Source: Bacteroidota bacterium (GTDB lineage: Bacteria; Bacteroidota; Ignavibacteria; Kapaibacteriales; HRBIN21). From it: DNA of 64,000 bases. Positions 39,625 through 47,698 of the stretch are shown piece after piece. The notes beneath the pieces are model-generated. The model ran no database searches. It was not told the DNA's origin and saw nothing but the letters and a program-made list of their open reading frames with translations. The translations under genes and the position numbers were made by a program. The DNA lies in contig JAUQPL010000009.1 in assembly GCA_030550395.1 (NCBI GenBank), forward strand, positions 1-64,000, read 5' to 3'. Positions within the stretch are counted from its first letter, which is position 1. Each line of letters opens with the position of its first letter.

Positions 39625-40134
39625 GTGAAGCAACCCTATGTGTTAGTGGTCGATGACAACCGCATCACAGTGAAGCTTCTGCGCCGTTACTTGGAAAAGC
39701 ACGGCTACGAGGTAGGCGAGGCATACGATGGGACAGAATGCTTGAGCGCTATCGCGCAGCGTCTTCCTGATGCTATCGTCCTGGATGTCATGATGCCGCA
39801 GATGGATGGGTACACGACCGTTCGCCATCTTCGGCAGCAGCCAGAGACGGCCTTGATCCCTGTGGTGATTGTGACAGCGCTCAACGATGTCCCCAATCAG
39901 GTGCGGGCAATTGAAGCAGGAGCAGATGACTTCCTAGGCAAACCGGTAGATGAGCGCCTTTTGATCGCAAAGGTCAAGCTCCTGACAACCGTAAGCCGGC
40001 TGCGGCGGGCATTCCGGGCACTCTGTCAGTATGTGGAACAGACAACAGGGTTAGAAACATTGCCGTCCGATATACGAGAGCTATGGGCTTTAGCAGGTTT
40101 GGACGTGCAATCGCCATCGGCCTCTTCCTCCTGA
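39625..40134 (+). CDS. Single-domain response regulator (receiver only)
   Basis: 169 residues. The receiver domain (about 5-125) has VVDDNR, the phosphoacceptor aspartate in IVLDVMMPQMDG, VTALND and the lysine in LGKPVDE. The last ~40 residues are helical without a recognised output domain, so it may act by protein interaction, as CheY- or Spo0F-like proteins do. GTG start with GGAGG about eight bases upstream. The gene end overlaps the LEA14-like lipoprotein gene by 52 bases in another frame. Confidence 0.93.
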   Translation: MKQPYVLVVDDNRITVKLLRRYLEKHGYEVGEAYDGTECLSAIAQRLPDAIVLDVMMPQMDGYTTVRHLRQQPETALIPVVIVTALNDVPNQVRAIEAGADDFLGKPVDERLLIAKVKLLTTVSRLRRAFRALCQYVEQTTGLETLPSDIRELWALAGLDVQSPSASSS

Positions 40135-40706
40135 GCACTGGCTGTGGAACAGTTCGGCAGGTAACCGAAGCTTTAGTTGGTATTGAGCGCTTGCGTTTTC
40201 GGTTGCAGGGAGTTTCAGACTTCCGCTTGGCAGGAATCCCTTTGGCGCAGAAGCGGAGGGTGGCGGATTTCAGCGTTACTGAAGCGGCACAACTTCTGGG
40301 ACTCTATCGTGCGGGGAAGCTCCCAGCCGAGTTTACTGTAGAGGTAGCTGTGATCAATCCCAACGATGGTGTCGGAGGACGCCGTCGGTTGCCAGTGACG
40401 TTGACCCAGATGAAGTGGCGCCTCTCTATTGATCGGGTTCCGACGGTATCTGGAGTTATGGCACAGCCTATTGAAGTTCCGCCAGGTGGGGAATCCGTGA
40501 TAGTTCCTCTTCAGGTTCAGCTGGATCTTATGGAGTTTTTCCGGCAGACCTATGAGGATGTGCTCCAGTTGGCGCTAGGGATTGGGGGAGCTCAAGGAGG
40601 ACCTTCTCGGCTGACCTTGGAAGTGGAACCCGTCCTTTCAACGCCGATAGGGACGCTGCGCTACCCACAACCGGTGACGGTTGTTGACAAGGAATTCCGC
40701 CCATAG
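40083..40706 (+). CDS. LEA14/WHy-domain-like lipoprotein
   Basis: 207-residue protein with a lipoprotein signal (basic start, hydrophobic core, LLSTGC with cysteine 21). The mature part contains one beta-rich domain with the pattern of a water-stress WHy/LEA14 domain: VEVAVINPND, then LPVTLTQMKWRLSIDRVPTVSG and VPPGGESVIVPLQVQLD. Such periplasmic or outer-membrane lipoproteins are frequent in this phylum; the role is unknown. ATG at 40083 lies within the response-regulator gene, which makes the two translationally linked. Confidence 0.75.
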   Translation: MGFSRFGRAIAIGLFLLSTGCGTVRQVTEALVGIERLRFRLQGVSDFRLAGIPLAQKRRVADFSVTEAAQLLGLYRAGKLPAEFTVEVAVINPNDGVGGRRRLPVTLTQMKWRLSIDRVPTVSGVMAQPIEVPPGGESVIVPLQVQLDLMEFFRQTYEDVLQLALGIGGAQGGPSRLTLEVEPVLSTPIGTLRYPQPVTVVDKEFRP

Positions 40707-40720
40707 AATCATCGGCGGCG

Positions 40721-41761
40721 ATGGATGAGCTTCTGTGGCTACTCCTTGGCATTACCCTTTTGGGAGAGTTTCTGCTGAATCTTTGGCGCGGCGTCATTGA
40801 AGGGGAGCCGTGGATGTTGATATCGGAGCGAGGAGAGGAAGAGGTTCGCCTCCATTGGGCAGCGCTGAACTTTGTGGATACGATTATCGGCGGGGGGATA
40901 CTCTTTGCCATCTTCTTCTTGCTACATCGTGGGACGCTGCCGCTGGAGTGGCAGCTTGGAGGGGTTGCGCTTATGGTTGTCCTACTCAGCCTGCTGAAAC
41001 CCATTGCCCAGGTAGTGGGGATGCTGTACGCAGGGACTCTCTTCCCTGTGTTGCGTCGTCTCCTACCTCTTTTTCAAATTGTGGAGGCTCCGTGGCGCTT
41101 CGTACTGCGCTGGCATCGCTTCCCCGATTCACGGTGGACGGAGTTAGCACGGCAGGAGCTTTCCGTTGTTGTTGAAAGCGCTCGGCAGGAGGGGGTGTTG
41201 GATCTGAAGGAATACCGCTTGGTGACGAATCTGATGCGTTTGCGGAACATCCGTGTTGCAGATGTGATGACGCCGCGGATGGTTATGGTGACCTGTCCGG
41301 CGGATATCCCCGTTCGGGATGCCCTCCGTATCCCAGAGTTGCGCACCTATTCCCGCATTCCCGTGTGGGAGGAAGATCCGGACACCATCATTGGGTATGT
41401 GCTGACGAAGGACCTGTTATGGGCAGCCTTAGAAGGGAAGGAGCAGGTACCGGTGCGTCACTTTCTCCGGGAGGTCTCCTTTGTTCCGGAACACTTAGAG
41501 CTGGACCGCGCTTTGGAGACTTTCCTTCAGAGGCGGCAACACCTGTTTGTGGTTGTTGACGAGTACGGCGGTGTAGAAGGGGTTGTCACGCTGGAGGATC
41601 TCATGGAGACGCTGTTAGGGGTGGAGATCGTTGACGAAGCCGATCGGGTTGCCGATCTCCGGGAGCTGGCAAAGCAATTGCGAGAAGAGCGGGTTGCTCG
41701 TATTCGTGCTACCTCCGCAGGGAGGGGACCGTTGGGAGAACATTCGGCAGAAGCTCCGTAA
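40721..41761 (+). CDS. CBS-domain membrane protein (CNNM/HlyC-CorC type)
   Basis: 346 residues. The N-terminal half has about three hydrophobic segments (about residues 1-20, 48-66, 75-100), and residues about 180-300 contain two CBS domains (VADVMTPRMVMVTCPADIPV, then YGGVEGVVTLEDLMETLLGVEI). RVADVMTPR and the GVVTLEDLMETLLG sequence are typical of CorC/HlyC-type proteins linked to cation (Mg2+, Co2+) efflux. The transporter-associated C-terminal domain seen in longer members is missing, replaced by a short charged tail. Confidence 0.85.
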   Translation: MDELLWLLLGITLLGEFLLNLWRGVIEGEPWMLISERGEEEVRLHWAALNFVDTIIGGGILFAIFFLLHRGTLPLEWQLGGVALMVVLLSLLKPIAQVVGMLYAGTLFPVLRRLLPLFQIVEAPWRFVLRWHRFPDSRWTELARQELSVVVESARQEGVLDLKEYRLVTNLMRLRNIRVADVMTPRMVMVTCPADIPVRDALRIPELRTYSRIPVWEEDPDTIIGYVLTKDLLWAALEGKEQVPVRHFLREVSFVPEHLELDRALETFLQRRQHLFVVVDEYGGVEGVVTLEDLMETLLGVEIVDEADRVADLRELAKQLREERVARIRATSAGRGPLGEHSAEAP

Positions 41762-41802
41762 CTTGCATGTATGGTTTAGTTTCCCGTTGTGGAGAGGAAC
41801 AA

Positions 41803-42084
41803 ATGCGGCGTCAAGATGCAGTGCGGCATATTAGCCGGAAGTTAGGTGTGGAGGCAGCACAGGTGCGCGCCGTGATGGAGGAGTTACTGGAGTTCGTCCA
41901 GGAGCATGTGGCTCGTGGAGAACGAGTGGATTTCCGTGGTTTTGGCTCCTTTTTCCTGCGATGGCGGCGTCCTCGGATGGCGCGCAACCCGCGCACGGGC
42001 GATCCCGTTCCGCTTGGGGAGCGGCAGGTTCCTGCTTTCAAGCCGTCGCCGAAATTTATTCAGCGGGTCCGGCAACAATCGTAG
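41803..42084 (+). CDS. HU-family DNA-binding protein
   Basis: 93-residue nucleoid protein of the HU/IHF family. The helical N-terminus (RRQDAVRHISRKLG) is followed by the characteristic GERVDFRGFGSFFLRWR strand-turn and the DNA-intercalating arm ARNPRTGDPVPLGERQVPAFKPS. The arm has the conserved RNPxTG and the proline. Start ATG 41803 has GGAGAGG about seven bases upstream. Encoded between the CBS-domain protein and a TPR protein on one strand. Confidence 0.96.
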   Translation: MRRQDAVRHISRKLGVEAAQVRAVMEELLEFVQEHVARGERVDFRGFGSFFLRWRRPRMARNPRTGDPVPLGERQVPAFKPSPKFIQRVRQQS

Positions 42085-42087
42085 AGG

Positions 42088-42651
42088 ATGCTCCGACCGT
42101 GGTTTATCTTAGCAGCGCTGGTGCTGAGCCTTGCTCTCGGTTCGTGGGTAGTGCGGCGGATAGCCGTGCCATCGCCGAGCGGGTCCGAGCAGACGCAGTT
42201 GGCTCCGGAGCAAAGGGCACGGTTGGAGGCGCTCCAACAGGCTGTGGCACTCAATCCGGACAATCTGGCAGCGGTATTAGAGCTGGCAAATCTCTACTAC
42301 GATCTTGGGCGTTTCCAAGAGGCAGTGCCTCTATACCAGCGCTATCTCAGCGCCGATCCAGGGCAGGCGGAGGTGCGGATTGACTACGCCTATGCTCTCT
42401 TTGCCAGTGGGGAACAGGAGGCGGGCATTGCGGAGCTACGTCGTGTGTTAGAGCGCTTTCCCGATCACCCGATTGCGCTGTTTAACCTTGGGATACTCTT
42501 GGCGCAACAGGGGAAGTTTGACGAAGCGCGGCAATTCTTCCGAGAGCTTATCCGTCTCCATCCCACGCTCCCATTGAGCCAGCGAGCACGACAAGCCTTG
42601 CAGATGGTGGATTCTGTGCAGAGATGGGAAGGTATCACAGTGGGGAAATGA
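42088..42651 (+). CDS. Membrane-anchored TPR protein
   Basis: 187 residues: one N-terminal hydrophobic segment (about 4-22, likely an uncleaved anchor), then about four TPR repeats (ALQQAVALNPDNLAAVLELANLYYDLGRFQEAVPLYQRYL is the first pair, broken over residues 49-88; later ALFNLGILLAQQGKFDEARQFFREL). The protein probably serves as an assembly scaffold facing the periplasm. Follows the HU gene by three bases. Partners unknown. Confidence 0.85.
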   Translation: MLRPWFILAALVLSLALGSWVVRRIAVPSPSGSEQTQLAPEQRARLEALQQAVALNPDNLAAVLELANLYYDLGRFQEAVPLYQRYLSADPGQAEVRIDYAYALFASGEQEAGIAELRRVLERFPDHPIALFNLGILLAQQGKFDEARQFFRELIRLHPTLPLSQRARQALQMVDSVQRWEGITVGK

Positions 42652-42654
42652 GCG

Positions 42655-42750
42655 ATGCCGTGCGGACGGAAGCGAAAGCGGTATAAAATGAACCGCCATA
42701 AGCTCAAGAAGCGGCGCCGGAAGAATCGGCACAAGAAGAAGAAGCGCTAA
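42655..42750 (+). CDS. AURKAIP1/COX24-like (mS38-like) mini-protein, putative ribosomal protein
   Basis: 31 codons from ATG 42655 to TAA 42750, three bases after the TPR gene stop. The product is extremely basic (about 24 of 31 residues are K, R or H), with the pattern KRKRYKMNRHKLKKRRRKN typical of the C-terminal COX24/AURKAIP1 domain. This domain is found in the mitochondrial small-subunit protein mS38 and in short bacterial proteins of the Bacteroidota/Chlorobiota, which are probably ribosomal. The reading frame, rather than random low complexity, matches that motif in order. It is easily missed because of its size. Confidence 0.75.
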   Translation: MPCGRKRKRYKMNRHKLKKRRRKNRHKKKKR

Positions 42751-42783
42751 AATTCTTCCGAGCTGTGGCTGACGAGCAGGGGG

Positions 42784-43818
42784 ATGGTATCGGGCAAAAT
42801 TGATATCCATGCGCATTTGATACCACCGGAGTGGCCAGACCTGAAGAGCCGTTTCGGCTACGGGGGGTTCCTGCGCATGGAGCACTATGCTCCGGGACGT
42901 GCTCGCATGGTCCGCGACGATGGGTCGGTCTTCCGCGAGGTGGGGGAAAATGCGTGGAATCCTGAGCGAGTGCTGGAGGATATGGAGCGCTACGGGATTA
43001 CCACCATGGTGCTTTCCACAGTGCCGGTCTTATTCAGCTACTGGGCGCGTCCGGAAGACTGTTACGAGTGGTCGCAGTTTCTAAATGACCACTTAGCTCA
43101 AGTCGTAGCGCTCTATCCGGGGCGTTTCTGGGGATTCGGGACGGTGCCGTTGCAGGATACGGATTACGCTATCCGTGAGCTGGAACGCTGTATCCGGGAG
43201 CTTCACTTCCCGGGAGTGGAAATTGGCTCCAATGTGAACGGGAAAAATTTGGACGATCCTTCCCTGTTCCCTTTCTACGAAGCGGCGCAGGAGTTAGGAG
43301 CGGCGCTTTTTGTGCACCCATGGGAAATGCTCGGTCGCGAGCGTCTGCAGCGCTACTTCCTGGAATGGCTCGTGGGAATGCCGGCGGAGACAGCGTTGGC
43401 AATCTGTAGCTTCATCTTTGGAGGTGTTTTTGAGCGGTTTCCCCACCTCCGAGTCCTGTTTGCCCATGGTGGAGGCTCCTTTCCCTTTACGCTCGGGCGG
43501 ATTGCTAAGGGATACCAGGCGCGACCGGACTTGTGTAATGTCAATGAAGTTGCCCCCCCGCAGGCATACGTGGGGCGATTCTGGGTCGACAGCATCACCC
43601 ACGACGTCCGGGCACTGCGCTTTTTGTTGGAAACAGTTGGACCCGAGCGGGTCGTTTATGGGACGGACTATCCGTTCCCCTTGGGGGACTTTGGGGATAG
43701 TTCGGTTATTTCTCAGTTGGAGCTTCCCGAAGAGATTGCGGAACGTATCTTTGTTCGGAATGCACTGGAGTTCTTAGGTCTGCAGACCACAGAGCCAGTT
43801 GCACCATCGCTCCAATGA
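42784..43818 (+). CDS. 2-Amino-3-carboxymuconate-6-semialdehyde decarboxylase (ACMSD)
   Basis: Amidohydrolase-fold decarboxylase of the kynurenine pathway, 344 residues. It diverts ACMS from spontaneous quinolinate formation toward catabolism. The match to characterised ACMSD is extensive: N-terminal metal motif DIHAHLIPPEWPDLK, LSTVPVLFSYWARPED, LFVHPWEMLGRE, WLVGMPAETALAICS, FAHGGGSFPFTLGRI and GTDYPFPLGD near the end with the catalytic aspartate. Overlaps the kynureninase gene by four bases. The two genes make a short tryptophan-degradation operon; kynurenine monooxygenase and 3-hydroxyanthranilate dioxygenase genes are not in the window. Confidence 0.95.
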   Translation: MVSGKIDIHAHLIPPEWPDLKSRFGYGGFLRMEHYAPGRARMVRDDGSVFREVGENAWNPERVLEDMERYGITTMVLSTVPVLFSYWARPEDCYEWSQFLNDHLAQVVALYPGRFWGFGTVPLQDTDYAIRELERCIRELHFPGVEIGSNVNGKNLDDPSLFPFYEAAQELGAALFVHPWEMLGRERLQRYFLEWLVGMPAETALAICSFIFGGVFERFPHLRVLFAHGGGSFPFTLGRIAKGYQARPDLCNVNEVAPPQAYVGRFWVDSITHDVRALRFLLETVGPERVVYGTDYPFPLGDFGDSSVISQLELPEEIAERIFVRNALEFLGLQTTEPVAPSLQ

Positions 43819-45137
43819 CAAGCAGCCAGCACGAAGCCACGGCGGAGTATGCTCGGGCTTTAGACGAAGCCGACGAGCTCGGCTCTTTTCGGGGACATTT
43901 CTGGATTCCGCAGCAGAACGGAGAACCGGTTGCTTACTTCTGTGGGAATTCGCTTGGCTTATTGCCGCGTACGGCGGAGGCGGCAGTTCGGGAAGAATTG
44001 CGGGTATGGGCAGAGTACGCCGTGGATGGACACTTTGCTCCACCCTGTCCGTGGTTTTCCTACCATCGTCTCCTGACCCCATACCTTGCAGAGTTGGCGG
44101 GTGCATTGCCTGAGGAAGTGGTGGCAATGAACTCGCTGACGGTCAATCTGCACCTTCTCTTCGCTACTTTCTATCGCCCTGTCGGACGCCGACGGAAGAT
44201 TCTCTTGGAGTACTATCCCTTCCCTTCGGACCTTTATGTTGCGCAGACGCAGTTGCGCTGGCGCGGACTGGAGCCGTCCCAGTGTGTAGTTTTCGCAGAA
44301 CCGACCTCTGGGGAATTCCTGGTGCAAACGGAGGACATTTGCAGTCGGATTGTGGAGATAGGTGAGGAGCTAGCCTTAGTCTTCCTCAGTGGGGTTCACT
44401 ACTACACGGGACAGCGTTTTCAGCTTGAGGCGATCACCCGAGCAGCCCATGCAGTGGGAGCATACGTCATTGTGGACTTAGCTCATGCAATTGGGAACGT
44501 GGAGCTAAAGCTCCATGACTGGGATGTGGATGCGGCGGCATGGTGTTCGTACAAGTATCTCAACTCTGGTCCAGGAGGTGTCGGAGGGCTGTTCGTCCAT
44601 AAGCGCCATGGAGGCAAGGCGGAGCTGGTTCGCTTGGGAGGTTGGTGGGGAACGCCGGAGGAGGTACGCTTCCGTCTGCTGTCGGAATTCCAGCCAGCCT
44701 ATGGTGCGGAGGGATGGCAGCTGAGTAATGCCCCAATTTTAGCAATGGCCGTGCACCGGGCTGCACTGGAGCTTTTCCATAAGGCCGGTTTCCCAGCACT
44801 GTGTCGCAAACGGGATCGCCTCCATGACTATGCCCGGTGGTGGATTGAACGAGTGCGCACCATAGTTCCTCAGGCACCGTTGCGGATAGTGACGCCGGAG
44901 GATGTGTCACAACGGGGATGTCAGCTTTCGCTGTGGGTCGGGGCAAATGGGAAGGAACTCTATCGGTATCTGCGTGCTGCCGGCATTGTGGTGGATTGGC
45001 GGGAGCCCAATGTAATCCGCTTGGCGCCCGTTCCGCTCTATAACAGTTTCCACGACGTCTATCGCTTCGGGTGTGCTCTCCTGAATGCAGCACAAGCCTT
45101 ATGGGGTGGGGGCCATCGGGGTGTAGAGAGGGGATAG
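43815..45137 (+). CDS. kynU: Kynureninase
   Basis: PLP enzyme that cleaves kynurenine (or 3-hydroxykynurenine) to anthranilate (or 3-hydroxyanthranilate) and alanine. The 440-residue protein has the family landmarks FCGNSLGLLPRTAEAAVREE, MNSLTVNLHLLFATFY, the aspartate in VDLAHAIGNVEL and the Schiff-base lysine in WCSYKYLNSGPGG. Overlaps ACMSD at its start. Its last 39 bases overlap the end of the convergent MlaF-like gene, leaving no terminator. Activity on 3-hydroxykynurenine would feed the ACMSD route; which substrate is preferred cannot be told. Confidence 0.96.
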   Translation: MTSSQHEATAEYARALDEADELGSFRGHFWIPQQNGEPVAYFCGNSLGLLPRTAEAAVREELRVWAEYAVDGHFAPPCPWFSYHRLLTPYLAELAGALPEEVVAMNSLTVNLHLLFATFYRPVGRRRKILLEYYPFPSDLYVAQTQLRWRGLEPSQCVVFAEPTSGEFLVQTEDICSRIVEIGEELALVFLSGVHYYTGQRFQLEAITRAAHAVGAYVIVDLAHAIGNVELKLHDWDVDAAAWCSYKYLNSGPGGVGGLFVHKRHGGKAELVRLGGWWGTPEEVRFRLLSEFQPAYGAEGWQLSNAPILAMAVHRAALELFHKAGFPALCRKRDRLHDYARWWIERVRTIVPQAPLRIVTPEDVSQRGCQLSLWVGANGKELYRYLRAAGIVVDWREPNVIRLAPVPLYNSFHDVYRFGCALLNAAQALWGGGHRGVERG

Positions 45138-45905
45138 GTAGCGCTCTAAGAAGCGTTGTACGATTGGCTCAGGACTCTGCAGCATCTGGAGCGGAGTTCC
45201 TGTAAAGACCACAACTCCGTCCTCCAGCAGAGCTACGTTCTGGGCGATGCGAAAGACGGTGAACATATCGTGGGTAATAACGACCGAAGTAACCTGGAGG
45301 CGGGAGGCCAATTCGGCGATGAGTTGGTCGATCTGTTCGGAAGTGATGGGGTCCAGTCCACTGGTAGGCTCGTCGTAGAAGACATACTCTGGTTGCCCGA
45401 CCAAGGCGCGGGCGATGCCGACGCGCTTGCGCATGCCACCGGACAAGTCGGCCGGGTATTTTCGGCAGAGAAGCTCGTATTCTCGGCGGAGGGTAGCAGT
45501 GTCGGCCTCCTCTGCCGGTGGGAGAAGCCCGACAGCACTTAGCACCCGCTGAGCCTCTTGGTGTAGAAGCTGCTCGTCACGGATATCGTGTTCGTAAAGC
45601 CCAATGACGACGTTCTCAAAGACAGTAAGCGAGTCAAATAGAGCAGCTCCCTGAAAGACATAGCCGAAGCGTCGGCGGATTCGGAACCATTCGGGTCGGC
45701 TCATGCGGGTGACTTCTTCTCCATCGATCCAGATACTGCCGGAGTCAGGGCGTAGCAATCCCACGATGTGCTTGAGCAAGACGGTTTTCCCTGAGCCGGA
45801 GCGTCCAATGATACAGGTGGTCTGCCCTGGAGGGATGCGGAGAGAGACATCCTTGAGAACGAGCTTCGTGCCGAAGCGCTTTGTCAGATGGCGGACCTCA
45901 ATCAT
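45099..45905 (-). CDS. ABC transporter ATPase, MlaF-like
   Basis: 268-residue ABC ATPase. Walker A is [14 protein letters not shown], the Q-loop [19 protein letters not shown], signature [15 protein letters not shown] and Walker [15 protein letters not shown]. The [13 protein letters not shown] and GMRKRV sequences are typical of MlaF/Ttg2A ATPases that drive retrograde phospholipid transport. The permease and MCE-domain partners are not adjacent. Overlaps kynU by 39 bases on the opposite strand and the peptide-ABC ATPase by four bases (upstream). Confidence 0.9.
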
Positions 45906-47698
45906 GTGGGCGTCGGAGACTGCAGTCGGCGCTGTTGGAGCTTCTCCAAAGTGACTGCTGGAATGGAGGCGATGAGACGGCGTGTGTAGTCATGGCGCGG
46001 ATGGGCGTAGAGCTCTTCTGCGTCTCCCATTTCAACGATATGTCCGGCATGCATGACGGCAATGCGATCACTGATGAATTTGACCACGCTCCAGTCATGC
46101 GTGATGAACAGATACGTCAACCCAAATTCTTCGCGCAGCTCCACAAGAAGATTGAGGACTTGTGCCTGGACGGAGACGTCAAGAGCGGAGACAGGCTCAT
46201 CACAGACGATAAAGCGCGGCTGAACGGCGAGGGCCCGGGCAATGCCGATTCGCTGCCGTTGTCCGCCGGAGAATTCATGGGGATAATGCCAGAAGTGGCG
46301 CGGCTCCAAACCGACCTTATTCAGGAGCCAGAAGACGTATTCGCGGCGTTCGCGGTCGGAGTCAAAAAGCTTATGGACGCGTAGCACTTCCATCAGGGCA
46401 CCCCCGACGGAAAGGCGGGGGTTGAGGGAGGCATAGGGGTCTTGGAAGATAATCTGCATCTGCCGTCGCAGAGCTTTGAGTTCATTGCCTGAAAGGGCAA
46501 GGATGTCTGTGCCGTTGAAAAGAATCCGTCCGCTGGTAGGCTCCAGAAGACGTAGGATGGCACGTCCGGTGGTTGTCTTGCCACTGCCAGATTCACCAAC
46601 CAGGCCCAGAGTCTCGCCACTGCGAATGGTCAACGAGACACCGTCGACAGCTTTGACATAGCCGCGCACACCCCCGAAGAGCCCTTTCCGAATAGGGAAA
46701 TGGACGTGGAGGTCTTCCACCTGTACTAATACGGGCTGTTGCTCAAGGGAGGCTTTGCGCTTTTGGAGTTCCTCTCGGGAAAGGGTCAAGTGGTCAATGT
46801 ATTCGTGGACGCTGATGTGGACTCTCTCGCGAATGGTGCTGTCCGGTAGCTCTTCCATAAAGTCCCGGACGGTAGGGAGGATGCGGAGCTTGCGGTCCAA
46901 GCGGGGGCGGCATGCTAGGAGCCCTTTCGTATACGGATGTTGGGGGTCCGTGAAGATACGCTCTAAAGGTCCCGACTCCACGATGCGCCCTTTATACATC
47001 ACGGCGATTTCATCGGCAATTTCGGCAATGACTCCCAGATCGTGCGAGATGAAAATCAGTGCCATCTGGTGCGACCGCTGGAGCTGTCGCATCAGTTCCA
47101 GGATAGTTGCCTGCACGGTCACGTCCAGAGCTGTCGTGGGTTCATCGGCGATGAGAATATCGGGTTCACAGCTCATCGCCATGGCGATCATGACACGCTG
47201 CTTTTGCCCGCCGGAGAGCTGGTGTGGATAGCGCTCTAACATGAGCTCAGGGTCCGGGAGCCCAACCTCGGTGAAGAGCTCCAGTGTCCGTTGGCGGGCT
47301 GCCTTCCGGTCCATCTTCCGGTGGAGCATCAGGGCTTCCATGACCTGGTCCCCACAGCGGAAGACGGGGTTGAGGGAGGTCATCGGCTCCTGGAAAATCA
47401 TAGCGATTCGGTTACCACGATACCGCTGCATCTCGCCTTCGGGGAGCTTTAGTAAGTCAACCACCGTACCGTCGTGATGGTGGAAGAGTACTTCCCCCTG
47501 GACGATTCTGCCGGGCGGAGTGGGAATCAAGCGCATAATGGAGAGAGCCGTAACGGATTTCCCAGAGCCAGACTCCCCAACAATGCCCAACGCTTTTCCC
47601 CGCTCCAAGCAGAAGCTGACGTCGTCGACTGCCCGTATGCTATACTGCTCGGAGTGGAACTCCGTCGTTAGATGCCGAACTTCCAGGACTGTTGCCAT
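45902..47698 (-). CDS. Dual-ATPase subunit of a peptide ABC transporter (DppD-DppF fusion)
   Basis: 598 residues made of two complete ABC ATPase domains in tandem, as in YejF/GsiA. Half 1 has [18 protein letters not shown] and signature [15 protein letters not shown]; half 2 (from about residue 325) has [18 protein letters not shown] and [15 protein letters not shown]. Both halves contain the oligopeptide-type C-terminal extension (for example [17 protein letters not shown]). No permease or binding protein gene is next to it. A TAAGTTTG promoter element lies 29 bases upstream, inside the lipoprotein gene. Confidence 0.95.

Follow-up and report, generated by a model that had tools for sequence, protein, structure and literature searches.

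The window, i.e., the whole stretch of 64,000 nucleotides that was analysed, carries at positions 42655-42750 a frame that is, almost certainly, the bS22 gene of this Kapaibacteriales (Bacteroidota) bacterium, its ribosomal role being assigned by homology to solved ribosomes. The gene, the constraint on its codons, its family and its neighbourhood are observed directly in the genomes compared here. It constitutes a fresh example of an already known ribosomal protein, reported previously from Actinobacteria, Flavobacterium and Borreliella, and is in this sense of low surprise. The gene is real, though it is less remarkable than the first-pass annotation anticipated, being near-universal in the phylum and already present in solved ribosomes.

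The gene and its immediate context

The features of the region are the following.

41767..42084, + strand: HU/IHF-family DNA-binding protein (PF00216, 77.9 bits), upstream of the TPR gene
42088..42651, + strand: TPR-repeat protein with an N-terminal hydrophobic segment, upstream of bS22
42655..42750, + strand: bS22 gene, small-subunit ribosomal protein, as judged from its frame, its matches to solved bS22 chains and its conservation
42784-43818: Amidohydro_2 protein (ACMSD-like), downstream of bS22, its ATG lying 33 nt past the bS22 end

The frame opens with an ATG at 42655, closes with a TAA at 42748-42750 and spans 31 codons, exactly as the first-pass annotation had placed it, and encodes the peptide MPCGRKRKRYKMNRHKLKKRRRKNRHKKKKR. 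The extreme basicity announced for this peptide is borne out, K or R accounting for 20 of its 31 residues; size and composition agree with those expected of a bS22 of the Bacteroidota/Borreliella type, about 28-31 residues with K or R in the majority.

The gene lies between a TPR protein and an ACMSD candidate, as had been described. Its ATG is found 3 nt beyond the stop of the TPR gene, a spacing that ranges from 3 to 7 nt across the genus (all six genomes), which suggests translational coupling between both genes. Downstream, the Amidohydro_2 gene is followed by a kynureninase gene (TIGR01814, 387 bits), and this pairing is consistent with an ACMSD identity for the Amidohydro_2 protein; the ACMSD-like amidohydrolase and the kynureninase (42784-45137) would form a kynurenine pathway pair directly 3′ of bS22. 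No Rfam family was found in positions 40001-46000 of the window, and the promoter and terminator scan returned one promoter-like site over the end of the bS22 gene and no terminators, both counts within the range of shuffled sequences.

Family assignment

When the window peptide was compared by phmmer with all PDB sequences, three chains made up the total return: bS22 of Borreliella (8fmw_V, E 2.8e-6), a 30S S22 protein (7jil_5, E 1.9e-5) and an “AURKAIP1/COX24 domain-containing protein” (9i5v_10, E 5.5e-5). The match to bS22 chains seen in ribosomes is significant and spans the full length, and the ungapped identities to the three chains are 21/28, 21/30 and 22/30, respectively. A profile built from 14 family members recovered the same chains (8fmw_V, 1.9e-10; 7jil_5, 6e-13; 9i5v_10, 2.8e-13) and no further one at E <= 10. 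Since two-thirds of the peptide are K or R, and the phmmer bias of 12-16 bits inflates scores, composition-preserving shuffles were used as a control for this bias: none of 20,000 attained the observed alignment score or identity for any of the three chains, the observed scores (112-116) exceeding those of the shuffles by 11 to 12 standard deviations.

The domain model behaves differently. Pfam COX24_C (PF08213) gives the window protein 10.2 bits (E 0.73), under its gathering cut-off of 23 bits, and at E <= 10 it matches only two of the 14 aligned family members; NCBIfam yielded no match for the window protein or the family members. A COX24_C search of the bacterium's own genome at E <= 10 did not retrieve the bS22 frame; its one weak hit, at G000:C3:243723, scored 12.6 bits, covered no more than positions 17-28 and was taken as chance. 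The COX24_C domain search that had been recommended thus leaves the window protein below the cut-off. The COX24/AURKAIP1-like identity proposed at that time holds insofar as the relatives in the PDB are named bS22 or AURKAIP1/COX24, and fails at the level of the Pfam model. Membership of bS22 accordingly rests on direct relatives and not on COX24_C. The curated model misses the Kapaibacteriales branch, and such genes need a branch-specific profile.

Constraint on the coding frame

The codon comparisons establish that the bS22 frame is a real gene under strong selection at the protein level. In the genus (six genomes, counting that of the window), each pair differs by 5-13 synonymous codons, the changes falling almost exclusively at third positions. 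No non-synonymous codon separates the five genomes in which the gene has 31 codons; the sixth lacks one lysine codon, which adds a single non-synonymous codon to each of its pairs. At the level of the order, all pairs of 30 loci over the first 29 codons accumulate 1571, 906 and 6511 differences at first, second and third codon positions, respectively. Of the codons that differ, 5865 do so synonymously and 1070 non-synonymously; these pairwise counts are not independent since the loci share ancestry. In all 30 loci the frame opens with ATG and is 30 or 31 codons long. The conservation of start and frame that had been put forward as a check is therefore found in the relatives, where the protein is maintained and changes are mostly synonymous. 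Moreover, of 66 loci, 48 have a Shine-Dalgarno-like 4-mer between -18 and -5, whereas shuffling the upstream DNA would lead one to expect 6.1. The bS22 of genome G294 (L147, position 1498) starts with GTG (VPSGKK...), similar to the GUG reported for Borreliella.

Neighbourhood across relatives

The neighbourhood was compared in 66 loci from 66 genomes, of which 30 came from the order search, 22 from the phylum search and 14 from a relaxed search; they are not a random sample, consisting of the best-scoring loci of the order and phylum searches and of chosen genomes from the relaxed one. In 64 of them, an HU/IHF homologue lies upstream of bS22, on the same strand and within about 1.5 kb. The window's genome has only two HU/IHF genes, so this linkage is not expected by chance. 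A homologue of the window's TPR protein precedes bS22 in 47 of the 66 loci. Downstream, the ACMSD-like gene and the kynureninase accompany bS22 in five of the six genus genomes, and the 60 loci from elsewhere all lack them there; the frame downstream of bS22 looks, by eye, RNase G-like in L136 and L143. The consulted portions of the bS22 literature (PMC10618245, PMC10085706, PMC6582356, PMC9976891) mention neither the HU linkage nor losses of the gene, and we make no claim that these are unpublished.

Distribution and apparent losses

A bS22 homologue was found in 60 of the 61 genomes of the order, the window's own included, covering 26 of 27 genera; matches were accepted at E <= 1, and the best one of every matching genome reached 3.6e-5 or lower. 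The sole order genome without a match, G047, is a 360-contig assembly. In a sample of 392 genomes drawn across the phylum, with completeness of 95 or more, 378 carry a match. The 14 misses correspond to G396, all seven genomes of family f45 and six of the ten of genus g114, and a relaxed search of these 14 together with G047 gave no credible bS22 match.

Several candidates arose in this search and were discarded. Weak partial matches in the bS22-less genomes came from G313, G319, G408 and G047; two of them (L149 and L150) have family-like beginnings, but reading them in frame showed something other than bS22. The remaining hits cover internal stretches, with E 0.136 or worse. A 17-base search for a HKRKKR-type pattern in 15 genomes, 12 of them among the 15 bS22-less ones, gave nine places in eight genomes, of which three are true genes (G310, G371 and G136). 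The six remaining frames are not bS22, and a reversed control pattern also gave six places.

In two genomes of genus g114, G136 and G371, bS22 directly follows HU. The six bS22-less g114 genomes (L166, L168-L172) keep the HU gene at 89-96% identity, and no bS22 can be read in the three forward frames of the 420 bases after it. This pattern reads as a loss, the alternative being a copy at another place in the genome that has diverged too far to be recognised. Altogether, bS22 appears to have been lost in family f45 (locus L174) and in part of genus g114. Its absence from 14 of the 392 phylum genomes means that ribosomes of this kind can do without bS22.

Alternative readings

It could be argued that a low-complexity basic frame, open by chance, would produce matches that merely mirror its K/R content, an idea encouraged by the abundance of K and R in the peptide (20 of 31) and by the insignificant Pfam COX24_C match. 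Nevertheless, none of the 20,000 shuffles of identical composition attains the scores of the PDB matches, the peptide family recurs throughout most of the phylum (378/392), and codon change is almost purely synonymous, a pattern that by itself already refutes this explanation; we regard it as practically negligible.

A second alternative accepts the conserved basic peptide and gives it another main role, such as assisting the neighbouring HU/IHF protein, serving as leader to the gene that follows or acting, once secreted, as an antimicrobial. The linkage to HU/IHF in 64 of 66 loci would agree with the first of these roles, and it has been reported that free C. acnes bS22 blocks bacterial growth and in vitro (cell-free) translation (PMC10085706), in line with the last. 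Against them, homologues at 70-75% identity are present in solved ribosomes. A leader function is furthermore unlikely since the downstream gene differs between lineages, being ACMSD-like in five of six genus genomes and in none of 60 others, and, by eye, RNase G-like in L136 and L143. We consider these other roles together very improbable, if somewhat less so than a chance frame, and retain the assignment as a bS22 ribosomal protein.

Proposed ribosomal role and its meaning

In Borreliella, bS22 is described as 61% K/R, occupying a pocket of 16S h2, h27, h44 and h45, contacting 23S H68 and analogous to mS38 and eL41; tryptic mass spectrometry failed to detect it in that study (PMC10618245). 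The C. acnes protein reportedly touches H67, forming an extra bridge (PMC10085706). In turn, yeast mS38 is reported to stabilise h44 and to be required for efficient mitoribosome formation, and a common origin of mS38 and bS22, with convergence of eL41, has been proposed (PMC6582356). By homology, the basic window peptide would fold as a bent helix, lodged in the 16S rRNA pocket formed by h2, h27, h44 and h45, and would contact the 23S rRNA (H68 in Borreliella; H67 in Cutibacterium), acting both as an RNA glue and as an extra inter-subunit bridge near the decoding region and the neck. We infer its expression, its incorporation into the ribosome and its bridge role in the source organism.

From the perspective of ribosome biology, the window gene confirms what solved structures had shown, and Kapaibacteriales join the groups shown to encode bS22; only the patterns of loss and linkage are of specialist interest, the apparent losses offering natural contrasts for testing the function of the pocket protein. 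A broader picture can be sketched, one that we hold as tentative and rather doubtful: bS22 of Bacteroidota might be a lineage-tunable and dispensable bridge protein, set in an ancient HU/IHF locus and cleanly lost at least twice (in f45 and in the g114 subset that keeps HU). If this were true, bS22-less bacteria would be natural experiments on the site shared by bS22, mS38 and eL41, and the HU-bS22 linkage would mean that the output of ribosome and nucleoid proteins is set jointly.

Comparison with known systems

The bS22 of Borreliella burgdorferi (8fmw_V; PMC10618245) resembles the window protein in length, in its start (MPCGRKRK) and in its end (KNRHKK), with 21/28 identical residues in a chain that comes without the final three. 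It was also unannotated when discovered and is reported to start with GUG (PMC10618245), whereas the window gene starts with ATG. Flavobacterium johnsoniae, given as the source organism of 7jil (PMC9976891), belongs to the same phylum as the window's bacterium; its bS22 (7jil_5), a sequence listed in the PDB under both names, 30S S22 and 50S L38, shares 21/30 residues and differs at residues 3, 5, 10, 12-14, 17, 21 and 23. The AURKAIP1/COX24 domain-containing protein 9i5v_10 is identical at 22/30.

Mitochondrial mS38 (COX24/AURKAIP1) and eukaryotic eL41 reportedly sit in the same rRNA pocket as bS22 (PMC10618245, PMC10085706), yeast mS38 being longer, with 111 aa (PMC6582356). Neither the peptide nor the profile matched mitochondrial mS38 or eL41 chains in the PDB at E <= 10, and the putative kinship with mS38 rests on published structure comparisons (PMC10618245, PMC6582356, PMC10085706). 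The earlier suggestion of a small-subunit protein common to this group and mitochondria is thus upheld by the matches as regards the 30S, while its mitochondrial half comes from those published structures only. The actinobacterial bS22 were not reached from the profile of the window family in the PDB search, and the F. johnsoniae and C. acnes proteins are reported to be 37% identical (PMC10085706); in M. smegmatis and C. acnes, bS22 occupies by structure the same pocket that the protein described here would occupy by homology.
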